Shown here: positions 7,233 through 39,784 of the stretch, piece after piece | Numbering within the stretch: the stretch's first letter is position 1 | Layout of the letters: every line of letters starts with the position of its first letter | Assembly (NCBI GenBank): GCA_025358205.1 | Contig: JANYKG010000147.1 | Coordinates: forward strand, 1 to 40,413 | Direction: 5' to 3' | Length of the DNA stretch: 40,413 nucleotides | DNA from: Armatimonadota bacterium | Lineage (GTDB): Bacteria; Armatimonadota; UBA5829; DTJY01 | The notes under the pieces: model-generated | Databases searched by the model: none | What the model was told of the DNA's origin: nothing | Seen by the model: the letters and a program-made list of their open reading frames with translations, nothing else | Made by a program: the position numbers and the translations under genes

Positions 7233-7257
7233 TATGCCCCTCCCATCGTTTGCATAA

Positions 7258-7373
7258 GGTGTTAGTTGGTAGGTGGTAGGTGTTAGGCCGGAACAGCCAT
7301 CAGCCATCTTCCCTTAACCATCAGCCATCTTCTCTTAGCCATTCTCCCATCCTAACACCAACCACCTACCACC
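7258..7373. repeat. Inverted heptamer arrays (GGTGTTA class) forming a long hairpin
   Basis: Left arm 7258-7285: GGTGTTA, GTTGGTA, GGTGGTA, GGTGTTA, exact 7-bp period. Right arm 7353-7373: TAACACC, AACCACC, TACCACC. Positions 7268-7287 and 7351-7370 are reverse complements over 20 bp with one mismatch. The 63-nt loop carries a second vocabulary: CAGCCAT (7294), CAGCCAT (7301), CATCAGCCAT (7318) and CTTCTCTTAGCCAT. The right arm overlaps the stop codon of the DUF4380-like gene, and the left arm ends about 26 bp before the sulfatase start. The RNA hairpin could affect processing or read-through between the two genes; no U tract follows it. Confidence 0.8.
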
Positions 7374-8374
7374 TATTTCGCCGCCACCTTCGCCAGCAAC
7401 GGCTTCAGCGCGGACTCCAGCGTCTCTTCCGTCGCACCGGCGTCCACACCCTTGAAGAGGTTCCAGTGCTCAACGTAACTGACGCTCTTACCGGCATCCA
7501 AGTTCACGAGCGGGGCAAGCGATTCCAATTCCATGAACGTGCCCGCCGTGTACGTCTCGCAGTTGCAGCCGCCGTCCGGGTACTTCGCGCCCTCTTCGTA
7601 GGTGAACGACTTGATGAACATCTCGCCCTTGCGAAGGTAGCCCGCCCAGCCCTGCTTGTCGGCTACTCCCACCTTCTGCGGCTCGTCAATCTTCTCATCC
7701 GTGCTAACGCGGATGTACTTCTTGCCAAGTTTCCAGCGCGAATCGCTGAAATCGGTGTAGTGCCAGATCGCCATCACGCGGGCGGGGAGCAGCTTTTCGT
7801 CGTGCGAGATGTACGGCTCGTTCGGGATGATGGTCGTGCCGCCGCCGTTCATGATCGTCAACGCCCACGGCGCAAGCTCGATCGTCCACAGCCCCTTGTT
7901 CCGCAGCGTATGGGTGACGGTGACTCTCGTACCCGTCTCATCGAGGTGGACCATCATGATCTTCTCGATTCCGGTCGCTTCCTCCACGTCCTCGGTGAGC
8001 GAGATCGTGCGTCGGCCCATCTGCTCCACCTTCACCGGCTTGTTGTCCGGCACATATGTGCGCGGCAGAACCTCGGGGGCATGCCACAGACGGTGGCCGC
8101 CGTAGGGATGCCAGTCGCCAAGCTCGGTCTTGATCGTCGGGCCTGTGCCCAGTTCGGCCAGGATATTCTCGCCGCCGATGAAGCTGTAACGAATGATCCT
8201 CGGGCCGATGTCCGAGGTCACGATAACCTCCACCTCGCCGTTAGAAAGCTTGTAGCAGTTCGGCTGGTCGAAATACTTCACTTTTTCGATGTTCACGGAA
8301 TCCCCTCCACAGGCTGATGTTATGGCGATAATCGCCAGAATAGTGACAAGTACTGCAAGTCTGATCGAACGCAT
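7373..8374 (-). CDS. DUF4380-like secreted protein (galactose-mutarotase-like fold)
   Basis: 333 aa, with a perfect GGAGGT 6 bp before the ATG. The N-terminus is an export signal (RLAVLVTILAIIAITSACGG); C22 might be lipidated, but the -3 residue is Thr, so the lipobox is weak. The motifs KLSNGEVEVIVTSDIGPRII, ENILAEL and WHPYGGHRLWHAPEVLPR are those of DUF4380 proteins, beta-sandwiches related to aldose-1-epimerases. The family often accompanies glycoside hydrolases; its activity is unknown to me. It is the first gene of the minus-strand cluster. The last codons and the stop run into the inverted heptamer array. The region upstream (8375-8678) is almost wholly word repeats, so I could not place a promoter. 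Confidence 0.82.
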   Translation of the reverse strand: MRSIRLAVLVTILAIIAITSACGGDSVNIEKVKYFDQPNCYKLSNGEVEVIVTSDIGPRIIRYSFIGGENILAELGTGPTIKTELGDWHPYGGHRLWHAPEVLPRTYVPDNKPVKVEQMGRRTISLTEDVEEATGIEKIMMVHLDETGTRVTVTHTLRNKGLWTIELAPWALTIMNGGGTTIIPNEPYISHDEKLLPARVMAIWHYTDFSDSRWKLGKKYIRVSTDEKIDEPQKVGVADKQGWAGYLRKGEMFIKSFTYEEGAKYPDGGCNCETYTAGTFMELESLAPLVNLDAGKSVSYVEHWNLFKGVDAGATEETLESALKPLLAKVAAK

Positions 8375-19928: not shown

Positions 19929-21380
19929 ATGAGCAGCATGACCAGACGTGACTTCATGGCAACCATCGGGCGCGGCGCACTCGGACTCGCAGCGGCAAGT
20001 CTCCTGCCGGAGTGCGCCTTCGCAGCCGACCAGCGCAGGCCGAACATCGTCTTCATACTGGTTGATGACATGGGCTGGCGCGACACCAGCGCATACGGCA
20101 GCAGGTTCTACGAAACCCCGAACGTGGAGAAGCTGGCCGCTCAGGGCATGAAGTTCACCCAGGCCTATGCCGCTTGCCCGGTCTGCTCCCCCACCCGCGC
20201 GAGCATCATGACCGGCAAGTATCCCGCGCGGCTGCACCTCACCGACTGGATTCCCGGCCACAAGTTCCCCTTCGCCAAGCTGAAACCCGCTGAAATGCAC
20301 ATGGAACTCCCGCTTGAGGAAACGACCATCGCGGAGGAACTCAAGAAGCTCGGGTACGCGACTGCCAGCATCGGCAAGTGGCACCTCGGCGGCAAGGAAT
20401 TCTACCCGACCCATCAGGGCTTTGACGTCAACATCGGTGGGTGCGAAAAGGGCAGTACGCCGAGCCATTTCGACCCATACAAGATTCCCACGCTGCCTGA
20501 CCGCAAGCCGGGTGAATACCTGGCCGACCGCCTGACCGACGAGGCGCTGGGCTTTATCGAAAAGAACAAGGACCGCCCATTTTTCCTGTACCTGCCGCAC
20601 TACGCCGTCCACACGCCCATCCAGGCGAAACCGGAGATCACCGAGAAGTACAAGGCGAAGATCAAGCCCGATGACCCGCAGAACAGGCCGGACTATGCCG
20701 CGATGGTGCAGAGCGTGGACGAGAGCGTCGGGCGCGTGATGGCAAAACTCGATGAACTGGGGATTGCGGACAACACGATCGTGTTCTTCAACTCGGATAA
20801 CGGCGGGGTCTTCGTGCCCAAGATCACGTCGAACGCTCCGCTCCGTGCGGGCAAAGGCACGATGTACGAGGGCGGAGTCCGTGAGCCGCTCATCATCCGC
20901 TGGCCGGGAAAGGTGAAGCCGGGGAGCGTGTGCGATACCCCTGTCATCAGCACCGACTACTTCTCCACGATACTGGACGCAGCGAAGGGGAGTAAGGCGC
21001 CTACACGCACTGCGGACGGCATGAGCCTGAAACCGCTGATCACCGGCGGCGATGCGCCCGAGAGAAAGGCTCTCTACTGGCACTATCCGCACTACCACCC
21101 CGGCGGCACGTCACCGGTTGGTGCGGTCCGAAGCGGCGACTGGAAGCTGATCGAGTATTTCGAGGACGGCAAGCTGGAGTTGTACAACCTGAGGGCCGAC
21201 CTGAGCGAGACAACCGATCTCTCGTCGAAGCTGACCGATATGACCACCAAGCTACACAAGATGCTCGTGGACTGGCGCAAGGCCGTAGGCGCCGTGATGC
21301 CAACCCCAAACCCGGCCTATGATCCGAAACGGGAGAAGGAACGGCCAGCAGCAGCGACTAAGGCGCCAACTCCAGAGTGA
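19929..21380 (+). CDS. Tat-exported sulfatase, arylsulfatase-A-like
   Basis: 483 aa from the ATG at 19929 (GAGGGA 8 bp upstream). The reading frame is open much further 5', but that part is antisense to the aminotransferase gene. The twin-arginine signal is MTRRDFMATIGRGALGLAAA. The formylglycine motif is of Cys type, CPVCSPTRASIMTG with C86. Metal ligands D46/D47 lie in FILVDDMGWRDTSAYGS and the second pair in FFNSDNGG. GKWHLGG, TPIQAKPEI and the C-terminal subdomain ELYNLRADLSETTDL are standard for S1 sulfatases. It hydrolyses sulfate esters outside the cytoplasm after Cys-to-formylglycine conversion. Its 3' end overlaps the convergent GH-A gene by 23 bp. Confidence 0.94.
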   Translation: MSSMTRRDFMATIGRGALGLAAASLLPECAFAADQRRPNIVFILVDDMGWRDTSAYGSRFYETPNVEKLAAQGMKFTQAYAACPVCSPTRASIMTGKYPARLHLTDWIPGHKFPFAKLKPAEMHMELPLEETTIAEELKKLGYATASIGKWHLGGKEFYPTHQGFDVNIGGCEKGSTPSHFDPYKIPTLPDRKPGEYLADRLTDEALGFIEKNKDRPFFLYLPHYAVHTPIQAKPEITEKYKAKIKPDDPQNRPDYAAMVQSVDESVGRVMAKLDELGIADNTIVFFNSDNGGVFVPKITSNAPLRAGKGTMYEGGVREPLIIRWPGKVKPGSVCDTPVISTDYFSTILDAAKGSKAPTRTADGMSLKPLITGGDAPERKALYWHYPHYHPGGTSPVGAVRSGDWKLIEYFEDGKLELYNLRADLSETTDLSSKLTDMTTKLHKMLVDWRKAVGAVMPTPNPAYDPKREKERPAAATKAPTPE

Positions 21381-24300
21381 CATACCATTTCTCGCCAAAA
21401 ACGAACTCACCGGCCACCATCTGGAAGCTGATGCGGGTTTCGGACGAGATGCCGTCAATCACCTTGAACTCCGCAACGGATGCGTCACCGAAGAACGGCG
21501 TGTCCTTCGCTATCGGCGCGTCAACGTGCGAGTCGGCAATTGTCGCTCTCAGGTACGCCGCGAACTTACCGGACGCCAGCCATTTCACCTCGGCGATGTT
21601 CCCAACCGATGCGCGCGCATACACGGGAGCACCTGCCTTGACCTTGATCTTCTTGCCGTCCGCCAGCGATACCCACTTGCCGGACGCGTTCTTGATCTCC
21701 AGCGAATTGAACTCCGCGTTCAAATACTTCGGCGGCTTCTGCCCGACCAAAGGCGTATCCCCAACCGCAACCTTCGGGAAGTTCGAGGTGTCCGTCCCGG
21801 TCGCCGGGGTCCGAAGGCCGACCGTCTTCCCCTCGGACACAGCCTTGCCGTACTCCACGCGCCGGTCCGCGAGCATGCCCGCGTATCCGTTCGTGTACTT
21901 GTCGCGGTCAACATCCATCCAGTAGTTCGGCGTCTTGGCGGGATACGGTTTCGCGGAAAGTTTGCCCATCCTGGTAAACTCCAGGGCGGACGGGCGAAGC
22001 GTGAAGTCCGGGTTGATGATGCTGTAATCGCTGTGCTCCCAGATCAGGTATCCGGGCCACCACCACGCCGCCGAACCCGACGAACGAGTCTCGTAGAACG
22101 TCTTGTAGATCTTCTCGTAGAACGCGCGCTGTGCCTCCAGCATCTCGTCGTTCGTCGGCATACCCGCGCTGAACCCCAGCTCCGCCCAGTAGACCGGCTT
22201 TCCACCGCCGGCGAACTTGCCGTAGAGCGTCGTGAATCCGCCCTCGCGGAAGGTCTGCAAGTCGCCGCTGAAGTTGTAGCCCTCGGGTGAGATGTAGTCC
22301 AGATGCTTCGCGCCGGAGAACAGGTCCACCGGCAGCGCAGGAACCGCATAGGCAGCAAGTGTACCCGTGCCGCCAAACCCGCTGCGCACACTGATAGGGT
22401 GATATGGGTCCATCTTCTTCATGAAGCGCTCGGTCTCCATGTACCGACGGCTGAGCTTGTCGTCCCAGAAGCGCCGATACGCGGCGACCATCCTGACCCA
22501 CGGACCGTCTACCATAACCTGATCGTCAGTGGGGCCGTGAACGCGCCCGTCCGCATCTTTCCGAAGCGCGAACTCCCAATCCTTCTCGGCGTTCTCCACA
22601 CTGCCGTAGCGGTCTTCCAGCCAGCGTTTCCAGCCGTTATCGAAAGCCTGACGCTTGGCCTCGCGACCGATGCAGACCTCCCAACCGAGGTCGTAGGCGA
22701 ACATGGCCGGACGCTCCGAGAGCCGCGCCGCCTCTATCAACTTCTTGGCTTTGGGGTAGTCCGGGAACATCGGCTCGGTGCCGGTGATGTAGACGTGGCA
22801 CTTCAGCCCGTGCTTGTGCGCGCGCTCCATGAAGTCAACGAACGCGGGCGGAACGGAGTCTATCGCCGGGTAGATAAGCGCGACGGTGTTCAGCCCGATC
22901 TTGTTCATCAGGCTGAGTTCCATCTCGACTATTTCGGCGTCATACTGGTCCGGGTGCGTCCAGTATTTCCAGAACGGCTTCTCCTCCATGGCTGCGACGT
23001 ACAGCGGGCGGTAGTTGATGCCCAGCGAATACCACGGCTTGCCCTTGTAGATAAACTGGTCGCCCTTGATGGTGACGAGGTCGCTCTTGTCCACCGGCTT
23101 CGATTCGACGATGGAGAACGGCTGGCGAATCTGGTCAACTAGCTTCCCGTCGCGCAGCATGGAGGTGGTCGCGATGTAGAACCCCGGCTTCAGTCCCTTG
23201 ACCGTCCCAAGCTCGCACACGGTTCTCTTTCCGGCCAGTGTGATCTTCTTCCCGAGTTGAGTGTTGAGCATTGAAGGTTGAACGTTGGACTTTCCCTTCC
23301 CATCTCTCTCCGTGTCCTCCGTGCCTCCGTGGTTGGATCCCGGCTGCTGAACGTTGGATGTTGCGTACTCCCCGTCAGCGGTGACAGAAATCTTGATCTC
23401 GACCTTTCCGGCCTCTCCGCCCAGGTTCAGCACCACCGCCCCTGCAACCGGATCACCCTCGAAATACGACGCCTTGTCCACCCCCCCGGAGAGCAGGTAG
23501 ATTCCACTATCAATTCGTTTGACCAGCGACACTACCTCGCGGACAACCGCATCCCTGTTCGCCGCCAGCGCCTTCGCATCGTCCAGCCCGAAACTCGCCC
23601 ACACGCAGCCCTTGTACTCCTCGTCATCCTGCACGTAGAGTGACGCCGCCGCCCCGCCGATGTGCCCATCCGCCATCTTCACCGCCAGCGCCGGAATCCA
23701 CCTGTGCGGCGCAGTCTTGTTGAAGCTCAGCCCGCGATACCTGGGAATGGAACACACAGTCCCATTCGCCCCCTCCAGCACTGAGTCACCCAGGACATCA
23801 TACGACCCATACGTCCGCACATAAGTCCCATTGGTCCTATACGTCTTATAGGCGGGACTGAGGGTTTCGAGGGTCGGCTGGCTAAAACTGGGGTTGCCAG
23901 CCGGATTCGGCATCGAGCAGATATCGGTTATCCAGAACTTCGCAGGCGCATTCGGGTCACGCAGGTTGTGGTTCTCGAAGCCGACCTTGAACTTGACCAC
24001 CTTGCTCACGTCAATCTTGTCATCATCGCCGCCTGGGCCTTTCCAGTGAGCGAACATGTCAGAGGTCAAAGCATAGCGTTTCCACTCGGTAGTAAGGTCA
24101 ATCTTCAGATTCCAGCGGGCGTCGTTCGAGTCAATCCACGCGACGGTAAGCTTCTGTGTGTTCGCGTCGCCCTTCGCCCAGAAGGTGGTCACGGTATCAC
24201 CTGCAGGGAACGGCCTGGTGATGGGAATATCCTGAAACTCCCAGTACTTGCAGCTTGGCAGGGAGACCTCGATCGCCGTGCCAGCGCCGAGAATGCTGTC

Positions 24301-24795
24301 TTCTGCAGGGCTGATCGTCGGGATGGTATCCGGCGTGCCGGTGTCACGATAGCTTGGCGAATACTTGTATTGGCCGAAATCCAGGATCGTCTCGTGCGAG
24401 GGATTGGCGGTCAACTTGTCCAGCAGCATCTGCTGGGTCAGCCAGTCGCCGTCCAGCTTCACGACCATATCCGAGAGCGGCGGCCCACCGATGGTAAACA
24501 GGTTCCCGCCTGCCGACAGGTACTGCTTCAGGGCAGGCACCGCGTCCCACGGGAAATACGCTGAGTTCGGGAGGATGAGCAGCTTGTCGGACATGTCTGC
24601 CGCGTCCGACCTGTCTGACCAGTCAGACACCTTGAACCCCTGCCCATCCAGCGAGGACTTCAGCGCACCAGCAAACGCCGCATCGCCGCCAGGGAACTGC
24701 TCACTCAGCATCAGGCACTCCAGCCTGCGCGCCTGTGACGAACTACCTAGTGCCATCATAACCACCACCATCACCAAGACCAATGTATGCTTCAA
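21358..24795 (-). CDS. Large secreted clan GH-A glycoside hydrolase with three repeat-array insertions
   Basis: 1145 aa from a TTG at 24795 preceded by GGGAG at 5 bp and followed by a signal peptide (KHTLVLVMVVVMMALGSSSQ). The frame continues upstream to 24891, but that part is a word array. Order: glutamine-amidotransferase-like segment (about 20-110, ending AGGNLFTIGGPPLSDMVV), jelly-roll CBM-like domain (about 160-270), a second amidotransferase-like part, a beta-sandwich (about 450-580), then a TIM barrel (about 590-930) with LGWEVCIG supplying a likely acid/base Glu and VYWAELGFSAG a likely nucleophile Glu. A C-terminal beta domain follows. It resembles GH5/GH42-like enzymes; no exact family can be named. 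Word arrays are in frame at about residues 56-70, 316-331 and 477-513. It lies downstream of a sulfatase. Confidence 0.88.
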   Translation of the reverse strand: MKHTLVLVMVVVMMALGSSSQARRLECLMLSEQFPGGDAAFAGALKSSLDGQGFKVSDWSDRSDAADMSDKLLILPNSAYFPWDAVPALKQYLSAGGNLFTIGGPPLSDMVVKLDGDWLTQQMLLDKLTANPSHETILDFGQYKYSPSYRDTGTPDTIPTISPAEDSILGAGTAIEVSLPSCKYWEFQDIPITRPFPAGDTVTTFWAKGDANTQKLTVAWIDSNDARWNLKIDLTTEWKRYALTSDMFAHWKGPGGDDDKIDVSKVVKFKVGFENHNLRDPNAPAKFWITDICSMPNPAGNPSFSQPTLETLSPAYKTYRTNGTYVRTYGSYDVLGDSVLEGANGTVCSIPRYRGLSFNKTAPHRWIPALAVKMADGHIGGAAASLYVQDDEEYKGCVWASFGLDDAKALAANRDAVVREVVSLVKRIDSGIYLLSGGVDKASYFEGDPVAGAVVLNLGGEAGKVEIKISVTADGEYATSNVQQPGSNHGGTEDTERDGKGKSNVQPSMLNTQLGKKITLAGKRTVCELGTVKGLKPGFYIATTSMLRDGKLVDQIRQPFSIVESKPVDKSDLVTIKGDQFIYKGKPWYSLGINYRPLYVAAMEEKPFWKYWTHPDQYDAEIVEMELSLMNKIGLNTVALIYPAIDSVPPAFVDFMERAHKHGLKCHVYITGTEPMFPDYPKAKKLIEAARLSERPAMFAYDLGWEVCIGREAKRQAFDNGWKRWLEDRYGSVENAEKDWEFALRKDADGRVHGPTDDQVMVDGPWVRMVAAYRRFWDDKLSRRYMETERFMKKMDPYHPISVRSGFGGTGTLAAYAVPALPVDLFSGAKHLDYISPEGYNFSGDLQTFREGGFTTLYGKFAGGGKPVYWAELGFSAGMPTNDEMLEAQRAFYEKIYKTFYETRSSGSAAWWWPGYLIWEHSDYSIINPDFTLRPSALEFTRMGKLSAKPYPAKTPNYWMDVDRDKYTNGYAGMLADRRVEYGKAVSEGKTVGLRTPATGTDTSNFPKVAVGDTPLVGQKPPKYLNAEFNSLEIKNASGKWVSLADGKKIKVKAGAPVYARASVGNIAEVKWLASGKFAAYLRATIADSHVDAPIAKDTPFFGDASVAEFKVIDGISSETRISFQMVAGEFVFGEKWYVTLELAP
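23256..23366. repeat. Composite word array inside the GH-A gene
   Basis: GTTGAGT, GTTGAGC, ATTGAAG, GTTGAAC, GTTGGAC (23256-23290, exact 7-bp period), a CT-rich link, three CTCCGTG words (23308, 23317, 23325), then GCTGAAC, GTTGGAT, GTTGCGT (23346-23366). The whole block is 111 bp, 37 codons. On the coding strand it encodes SNVQQPG, SNHGGTEDTER and SNVQPSMLNTQ, hydrophilic and unlike the beta-strand sequence on either side. Confidence 0.82.
23804..23849. repeat. 9-bp-period word array (GTCCTAT class) inside the GH-A gene
   Basis: Cores GACCCAT (23804), GTCCGCA (23813), GTCCCAT (23825), GTCCTAT (23834) and GTCTTAT (23843), mostly each followed by two free bases. The step is 9 bp except one of 12, so reading frame is kept. 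The protein reads KTYRTNGTYVRTYGSYD across it. The same core occurs three times at 38297-38321. Confidence 0.7.
24586..24628. repeat. 9-bp-period word array (GTCNGAC class) inside the GH-A gene
   Basis: Five cores: GTCGGAC (24586), GTCTGCC (24595), GTCCGAC (24604), GTCTGAC (24613) and GTCAGAC (24622), each followed by two free bases, with an exact 9-bp step. The core GTCNGAC is its own reverse complement. The protein reads SDWSDRSDAADMSDK near residue 56-70. Confidence 0.8.
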
Positions 24796-24821
24796 TGTAT
24801 CTCCCGTTCCCATTCCGGGCT

Positions 24822-24863
24822 GTTCGACGTTGAGCGTTGGGCGTTCGATGTTCGATGTTCGCC
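24822..24863. repeat. Heptamer word array, GTTCGAT class, in a 5' leader
   Basis: Six contiguous units: GTTCGAC, GTTGAGC, GTTGGGC, GTTCGAT, GTTCGAT, GTTCGCC. It occupies the spacer between the sulfatase stop (24898) and the start of the large GH-A gene (24795), 26 bp upstream of that start. If translated on the minus strand it would read TSNIERPTLNVEQ. Confidence 0.85.
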
Positions 24864-24897
24864 TCTTCCGCCCACACACCCATACCCCCACACATCG

Positions 24898-26331: not shown

Positions 26332-26386
26332 TTTCCCCTCCCGGTTGAGAACCTTTTGCACTTTTCCTGTGATGTTTCCTGCATCC

Positions 26387-26474
26387 GTGATGAGTGATGA
26401 GTGATACGTGAACTGCATCGGAAGCGGGTACTAACCGTCCGGGACTAGTTCACTCATCACTCGTCATTCATCTT
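26387..26474. repeat. Inverted heptamer arrays (GTGATGA class) forming a long hairpin
   Basis: Left arm: GTGATGA (26387), GTGATGA (26394), GTGATAC (26401), GTGAACT (26408). Right arm: AGTTCAC (26447), TCATCAC (26454), TCGTCAT (26461), TCATCTT (26468). Positions 26389-26414 and 26447-26472 are reverse complements at 22 of 26 positions, around a 32-nt loop. It lies in the divergent spacer 26332-26605, 56 bp upstream of the sulfatase start. Confidence 0.82.
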
Positions 26475-38269: not shown

Positions 38270-39784
38270 ATGAGAATCAAAGCGATTCCGGCATATGTCC
38301 TATCTGTCCTATTCGTCCTATCATCGTGCGCACACGCCCAAACGCCTGAGTCGCAGAAGCTTCACCTGAAGTTCATCGGCATCAGCGGTAAGGCGATTCC
38401 GGCGACGGCGATCGGTCGGTTCCACTGTCGGGACATGGCGGATGAGCCTTTGCCCGCCCGGACCTACGTCCATGACGGTTCGGCCACGGTCGTGCTCCCA
38501 GGCAAGCCGTTCCAGGTCTGCGCGCTGGTCAATACTCCGGGCTTTGGCGAGGTCGTGGTCTACGCCGACAACAAGGGCCAGGGCTTCACTAAGCCGGGTT
38601 GGGTGGACTTCACATCAGAGGCCGCCGCAACCCGTCTCATGCGCGTGAAATCAGCATTGAAACAGGCCGAGGCGGAAGGCGTCCTCTTGTCCCAGGGGTT
38701 CTACCAGAGGCTGAGAGCCGCGGAGAAGGAGTCACCGCATAAGTCACTGGCGATCACCCTCAAAGCAGGTGAAGACCTGACAGTCGCACGAGCGCGCCAC
38801 AGAATCGCACAGATGAACGGACAACCAAGGGAAGGCTTCATTTTCGGGTGCAATGCCTTCGGGTATCCCGCGCGAGGACCGATCTACCAGGAGCGATTCA
38901 AGGAGCTTTTCAACCTGGGCATCACCAACGTCTACCTCAGCCACTACGCGCCGACTGAGACCACTCGCGACTTCACGCGGACGGACAACGAAACCGCATG
39001 GCTGCTCTCGAACGACATGCGGATGAAGCCCTGTCCGCCGTTCTACATGGCAAGCGGAGTGACCCCCGAATGGCTGAAGAACAGGCCGTACTCGGAAGTC
39101 AAACAGATCGCGCACGACCTGGTCAAAGAGGTCGCCGCACGGTACAAGGACAAAACCGAGTTCTGCGAGATCATGAACGAAGCGCACGACTACTCGAACT
39201 CCCTGCGTCTTACGCCCGACGAGATGACCGACCTCGCCGGAGTGACCTCAAGAGCTGCTCGCGAGGGCGACCCGGATGTGAAACGAATCATCAACTCCTG
39301 CCACCTCTGGGGCGAATACGCCGCTGAACCGACCAAGGATGGCAAGTACCGGCGCTCGCCTTACGTCTACCTGCGCGACTGCATTAACGCAGGGGTTGAC
39401 TTCGAGATCGTCGGCCTGCAGTTCTACTACCCGGAGTACGACCTGTTCGAGATTGACCGTCTGCTGGACAAGTTCTCCAAGCTCGGAAAGCCCATCCAGA
39501 TCACTGAAATGGGCTGCCAGTCCGCACCGGGGATTGACCCGAACGCCCAGCGCAAGAAAGGCTCAGCGGGTTGGCACAGCGACTGGACCGAGGCAATGCA
39601 GTCGGACTGGGTTACGAGTATCTACACTATCTGCTACAGCAAGCCATACGTGGAGGGCGTCTCCTGGTGGGACCTGGCGGATGCGGTATCGTTCTGGCCG
39701 TATGGCGGGCTGCTGAGAGGCGACTGCTCACCAAAGCCTGCGTATCTGCGCCTGAAGTCAATGAAGAAATCCTGGGGGTTCTAG
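38270..39784 (+). CDS. GH10-like endo-xylanase lipoprotein
   Basis: 504 aa from the ATG at 38270 (GGGAG 6 bp upstream; a further ATG at 38255 has no such site). The N-terminus is a lipoprotein-type signal with LSSC as probable lipobox (C20), otherwise cleavage at AHA-Q. Its hydrophobic core, residues 10-18, is encoded by a three-unit GTCCTAT array. Residues about 30-180 form a beta domain. The GH10-type barrel begins near 190: CNAFGYPARGPIYQERFKEL, CEIMNEAHDYSN (E304 acid/base) and IQITEMGCQS (E413 nucleophile). GH10 enzymes cut beta-1,4-xylan; this member is divergent in its first barrel strands. It is probably co-transcribed with the GH42-like gene. Confidence 0.9.
   Translation: MRIKAIPAYVLSVLFVLSSCAHAQTPESQKLHLKFIGISGKAIPATAIGRFHCRDMADEPLPARTYVHDGSATVVLPGKPFQVCALVNTPGFGEVVVYADNKGQGFTKPGWVDFTSEAAATRLMRVKSALKQAEAEGVLLSQGFYQRLRAAEKESPHKSLAITLKAGEDLTVARARHRIAQMNGQPREGFIFGCNAFGYPARGPIYQERFKELFNLGITNVYLSHYAPTETTRDFTRTDNETAWLLSNDMRMKPCPPFYMASGVTPEWLKNRPYSEVKQIAHDLVKEVAARYKDKTEFCEIMNEAHDYSNSLRLTPDEMTDLAGVTSRAAREGDPDVKRIINSCHLWGEYAAEPTKDGKYRRSPYVYLRDCINAGVDFEIVGLQFYYPEYDLFEIDRLLDKFSKLGKPIQITEMGCQSAPGIDPNAQRKKGSAGWHSDWTEAMQSDWVTSIYTICYSKPYVEGVSWWDLADAVSFWPYGGLLRGDCSPKPAYLRLKSMKKSWGF
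38297..38321 (+). repeat. 9-bp-period GTCCTAT array within a signal peptide
   Basis: Three perfect GTCCTAT cores at 38297, 38306 and 38315, with two-base spacers CT and TC. In frame they encode V-L-S, V-L-F, V-L-S (residues 10-18 of the GH10-like protein), the hydrophobic stretch of its export signal. Confidence 0.82.

Follow-up and report, generated by a model that had tools for sequence, protein, structure and literature searches.

Arrays of degenerate seven-base words in and around a GH42-like gene of an Armatimonadota bacterium: a composite that reads as an in-frame insertion beside words that appear to have been written in place

STRR is the name used for the heptanucleotide repeats of cyanobacteria. 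Heptanucleotide tandem repeats have been described as TAACTGA in Beggiatoaceae (PMC4679880) and as GGGAATC in Xanthomonas and Nostoc (PMC4692102). Rickettsia palindromic elements (RPEs) are palindromes of 105–150 bp with terminal inverted repeats, and the product of the host gene appears to tolerate the element (PMC2229807, PMC10969869). Here, we describe short arrays of seven-base words in a 40,413-bp stretch of DNA from an Armatimonadota bacterium (the window; source genome G000) and in other genomes. A string search of the literature found no description of these words; the two papers that contain one of the strings each have titles on other subjects. We consider it likely that STRR-like heptamer arrays spread mainly between genes, that genic copies remain where length, frame and site allow, and that words with a period of 9 bp are written in place.

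The host gene lies within a single intact open frame at 21358–24891 on the minus strand. The match of its product to GH42 is weak (residues 721–874), a comparison with PDB chains gave no match, and a single-sequence AlphaFold2 model of residues 301–660 had a pLDDT of 30. Homologues were found in 13 of the 21 genomes searched, with the closest in three genomes of the same family (G002, G003, and G004; 53–70% identity by piece). The host enzyme is probably intact because glutamates 738 and 904, which are candidates for the catalytic residues, are invariant in all 17 aligned sequences. At one locus of G004 (L029), the homologue is divided between two frames, one of 185 and one of 965 residues. 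The features of the gene are as follows.

21358–24813, minus strand: host gene for a GH42-like (GH-A) protein; probable start TTG 24795 or ATG 24813.
23256–23366, minus strand: segment 3, a composite that reads as an in-frame insertion in alignments, net ~25 codons relative to G002, G003, and G004.
23257–23289, plus strand: GTTSRRY word array, one half of a split array, stop-free on the gene strand.
23308–23333, plus strand: CTCCGTG triplet of 26 bp, fitting a pattern found in ~15 phyla.
23346–23365, plus strand: GTTSRRY array, second half, by direct reading.
23804–23858, minus strand: segment 2, ATARGAC/GTCCTAT near-words with a 9-bp period over residues conserved in relatives; not an insertion.
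24584–24628, no strand assigned: segment 1, five GTCNGAC units (a palindromic word) with a 9-bp period, read as Ser-Asp-x and apparently in place in a variable loop.
24822–24866, plus strand: leader GTTSRRY array, period exactly 7 bp, in the spacer that separates the sulfatase gene from the host gene.

The words are real and beyond chance. Period-7 arrays number 76 in 368 kb of the source genome versus 3 in 298 kb of G002; the genome was sampled as stretches, and array densities are biased upwards because some of these were picked for matching the leader array. By the gene calls of a simple model made for this analysis, 46 of the 76 are intergenic, 17 lie at gene edges and 13 are inside called genes, in a sample of which 89% is called coding; some of the 13 are close to a gene start and may in fact lie outside the gene. 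The classes listed include GTTSRRY, NTNCGGA, GGTGKTW, GTGATGA, and CATSARC types, several arrays are arranged as inverted pairs, and neighboring words within arrays vary almost independently. The GTCNGAC and GTCCTAT classes have a period of 9 rather than 7, i.e., seven bases plus a variable 2-bp spacer. Tandem Repeats Finder reported none of the host-gene segments. A fifth-order Markov test of 7-mers failed to pick up the words, since the arrays themselves contribute to the background of the test, and period spectra were used instead.

The window holds further examples. GGTGKTW-type arrays form an inverted pair between two minus-strand genes (7255–7290 and 7350–7379), and GTGATGA/TCACTCA arrays form another at the start of the sulfatase gene (26381–26413 and 26449–26474). 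At the start of a GH10 gene (38290–38324), three exact GTCCTAT words with a 9-bp period encode VLSVLFVLSSCA; this stretch resembles the hydrophobic core plus lipobox found in signal peptides of lipoproteins. The original prediction had placed a fourth array in the leader of the host gene; the array is there, at 24822–24866, and lies upstream of the probable start. None was seen in the corresponding spacer of G003, and RNA folding of the leader DNA shows nothing special.

In whole-genome counts, each class is concentrated in a few genomes: G000 and G017 account for most matches to GTCCTAT and, together with G003, for most of those to GTCNGAC, and CTCYGTG triplets are mainly in G000 and G031. 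GTTSRRY occurs as mixed words in G000, and G016, G020, and G024 have it in the uniform form GTTGGGT. The reversed pattern, used as a control, gave 0–1 matches in nearly every genome. G032, of the same phylum, may hold a different word family, because there the reversed, noncomplemented GTTSRRY control matches 19 times (10 + 9) and the forward pattern never does. In G031, also of this phylum, CTCTGTG triplets form about fourteen inverted pairs, their starts separated by roughly 100–140 bp.

The original prediction held that three word classes had all been inserted in frame into the host gene. That the words exist and that they share one open frame were both borne out, and the GTCNGAC and GTCCTAT patterns exceed chance in shuffles, the latter more weakly; insertion, by contrast, stands for 23256–23366 and fails for 24586–24628 and 23804–23849. 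In segment 3 (TSNVQQPGSNHGGTEDTERDGKGKSNVQPSMLNTQL), GTTSRRY words (GTTGAAC at 23277) are interrupted by a CTCCGTG element (23308, 23317, and 23325). In protein and codon alignments, ~25 codons are missing from G002, G003, and G004 with continuous flanks, and the remaining homologues shown in the alignment are also short there. Thus, by comparison across genera, segment 3 appears to be a true in-frame insertion. The 11-bp sequence TGAACGTTGGA at 23348–23358 repeats 23279–23289 at a distance of 69 bp; this repeat around 23290–23347 may represent array words rather than a target duplication. The RNA fold of segment 3 is no better than that of shuffles (z = −0.05).

Could each in-gene array have grown in place by local slippage from a short seed and then diverged? 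Tandem order and constant period fit such an origin, and adjacent words are slightly more alike than words redistributed among arrays in two of three sets (25/1,000 and 11/1,000 shuffles). However, identical neighbors hardly exceed expectation for GTTSRRY (13.6% versus 12.3%) and are not above it for GTCNGAC in G003 (935/1,000 shuffles). Moreover, the CTCCGTG triplet of segment 3 fits a 26-bp sequence of many phyla, which slippage in a single gene cannot give. We regard slippage as distinctly improbable and prefer to view segment 3 as a surviving copy of a composite array that would have spread mainly between genes.

Segment 1 (KVSDWSDRSDAADMSDK) has GTCNGAC at 24586, 24604, 24613, and 24622, and the five-unit pattern fits 29 of 30 positions, a score reached by 1 of 500 same-protein codon shuffles and by none of 500 codon-order shuffles. 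It occupies a variable stretch in which the query is ~5 residues shorter than G002 and G003, and G003, which belongs to a different genus, carries GTCNGAC words of its own at this site. We therefore rejected segment 1 as an insertion. Segment 2 has a single exact GTCCTAT, at 23834, the rest being near-words; its pattern, for a word chosen post hoc, fits 24 of 35 positions. The original prediction had named conserved amino acids in distant homologues as the finding that would speak against insertion, and segment 2 aligns with YKTYRTTG...IRTFGSY (conserved pattern YKTYRT..RT[FY]GSY) of relatives without GTCCTAT arrays, the query being 1–2 residues shorter. With homologous residues in relatives and no added length, segment 2 was also rejected as an insertion. 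Absence from relatives with continuous flanks, as had been anticipated for all three segments, is thus found for segment 3 and not for segments 1 and 2. Likewise, the products of segments 1 and 3 are hydrophilic and of low complexity as described, while that of segment 2 is Tyr/Thr/Arg-rich and partly conserved.

Segment 2 might simply be ordinary conserved coding sequence with a chance resemblance to GTCCTAT words, a reading that we rate as a serious possibility, if somewhat short of even. YKTYRT and RTFGSY stand at the same columns in relatives without such arrays, and there is just the one exact word. On the other hand, codon choice adds to the match, which 1 of 500 same-protein shuffles reached, and the GTCCTAT class is real elsewhere in the source genome, with four exact arrays.

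Other genes add to both kinds of case. In the source genome, arrays occur inside GH38, GH42-like, ligA, trmFO, uvrA, apbE, hemN/hemW-like, SpoIID-like, and MutL-like genes. First, UvrA residues 239–267 (+29 amino acids) fall between the contiguous residues 260 and 261 of 9gxk; the insert is missing in six relatives, where the DNA directly adjoins to leave a seamless empty site. This site tolerates length change because G020, G018, and G007 carry different extra residues there. Second, TrmFO residues 338–365 (about +28) fall at residue 331 of 3g5q. Third, LigA residues 164–191 (+28) map to residue 159 of 2owo; the loop there also differs in length among relatives that lack words. As to the surface loops that had been predicted, homologues of known structure show only that the empty site is seamless, in positions of variable length among relatives. 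Judged by these alignments, the arrays in uvrA and trmFO appear to be in-frame insertions, and that in ligA is probably one. In-gene arrays showed no significant preference for the stop-free strand (8 of 10 asymmetric cases, P = 0.11).

GTCNGAC words behave differently. In PfkB of G000 and G003, they align without gaps to word-poor relatives, and one exact word and some near-words are already present in PfkB of G002; in QueG of G003, they bring no net gain in length. We take these to be words in place, and segments 1 and 2 would belong with them. In-gene GTCNGAC arrays (G000, G003, and G017) are read as Ser-Asp-x in 10 of 10 cases with another stop-free frame available, a bias that is suggestive only because about eight of the ten arrays are independent. 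Ser-Asp repeats at the protein level are unlikely to be the sole cause of these words, with codon frequencies leading one to expect them in ~3% of SDxSD, in a sample biased by the fetching of loci.

These in-place words bear on another explanation, namely that the words are sites under selection, for a DNA-binding protein, a methylase or an RNA hairpin, and that in-gene copies are functional. The in-place words of PfkB and QueG point to pressure acting at the DNA level, GTCNGAC is palindromic and keeps both half-sites while center and spacer are free, and segment 1 is able to form hairpins (z = −2.1). Yet the fixed half-sites are partly a product of the search pattern, the fold of the inserted composite is unremarkable (z = −0.05), intergenic arrays have no fixed position or orientation to genes, and close relatives are entirely without words. 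We consider selection on the words to have little probability.

Altogether, these observations are best accommodated by the spread of heptamer arrays mainly between genes. Several families of degenerate seven-base words would form short tandem arrays with a period of 7, or of 7 + 2 = 9, and a copying process would accumulate these arrays mostly between genes. A period-7 or composite array inside a gene would persist only if its net length is a multiple of three, it is stop-free and the site is tolerant; segment 3 would be such a survivor. Period-9 words in genes sit where the sequence is variable and add no length, so they would have been written in place, by substitution or equal-length replacement; segments 1 and 2 would be of this type. 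The copying step, neutrality, the loop position and frame keeping as passive filtering are what we infer. The general idea of insertion with the frame kept was right, because segment 3 is joined by the arrays in uvrA, trmFO, and probably ligA; as for the selection invoked with it, loss of frame-breaking copies explains frame keeping adequately, and we favor passive survival. Nor is one gene with several classes special: more than one array is likewise found in the GH38 gene of locus L053 and in the SpoIID-like gene of L256, and intergenic regions often contain mixed clusters. The claim that insertion is active gains no support here: GTCNGAC words at two genes are common to different genera.

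The CTCCGTG element also occurs well beyond this genome. Its 26-bp pattern occurs in at least 117 stretches of a collection of genome contigs, with ~0.004 matches expected by chance (uniform bases, own calculation). The 80 matches listed (L113–L192) span about 15 phyla by record titles, include isolates of Nostoc, Spirosoma, Sorangium, Geothrix, Verrucomicrobium, and Bowmanella, and contain the window's exact 26 bases in five genome loci. The pattern is also present in 75 stretches of viral contigs. Six viral contigs (L309, L320, L323, L352, L358, and L360) carry forward and reverse CTCYGTG triplets whose starts are exactly 508 bp apart. CTCYGTG copies often form inverted pairs whose interiors, judged by eye, seem unrelated, and the GGT side of the triplet tends to lie closer to a gene boundary (median 21–32 bp) than does the CTC side (121–142 bp; simple ORF calls). 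One could go further and propose that an undescribed copying process spreads degenerate words across many phyla, inserting period-7 composites between and inside genes and converting near-matches into period-9 words where they stand, by which proteins, UvrA and TrmFO among them, would gain word-encoded stretches, with the CTCYGTG triplet common to ~15 phyla; this proposal is speculative and on balance unlikely.

Since the arrays include naturally occurring in-frame insertions in enzymes that are conserved and well studied, heptamer origin and movement become testable at exact empty sites, and the 26-base triplet common to ~15 phyla can be traced in public genomes. The arrays also suggest that heptamer repeats, like Rickettsia elements, can supply essential proteins with new stretches of sequence.

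How, then, do these arrays compare with described systems? Like MITEs and other small dispersed repeats, they are small, dispersed and sometimes fused in frame, and CTCYGTG is often in inverted pairs. MITEs have terminal inverted repeats around a constant interior, with target-site duplication; here the inverted pairs have interiors that appear unrelated by eye, and the TGAACGTTGGA repeat may be a target duplication or array words. Like RPEs (PMC2229807, PMC10969869), they are small repeats found between genes and in frame in conserved genes, in-frame insertion into conserved protein genes being seen for GH segment 3, UvrA, and TrmFO. Unlike RPEs, segment 3 is a word array in which single words and triplets vary freely, with no notable fold and no long palindrome with a stable stem-loop (z = −0.05). 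The period-7 arrays are dispersed tandem seven-base units, mostly intergenic, in the STRR sense. As in the heptanucleotide repeats of other bacteria (PMC4679880, PMC4692102), seven-base units occur in few copies, mostly between genes, some inverted and few in ORFs, patchily among relatives and in distant lineages. Unlike those repeats, many classes coexist here, arrays mix their words, some classes have a 2-bp spacer, and in-frame insertions lie within conserved housekeeping genes.
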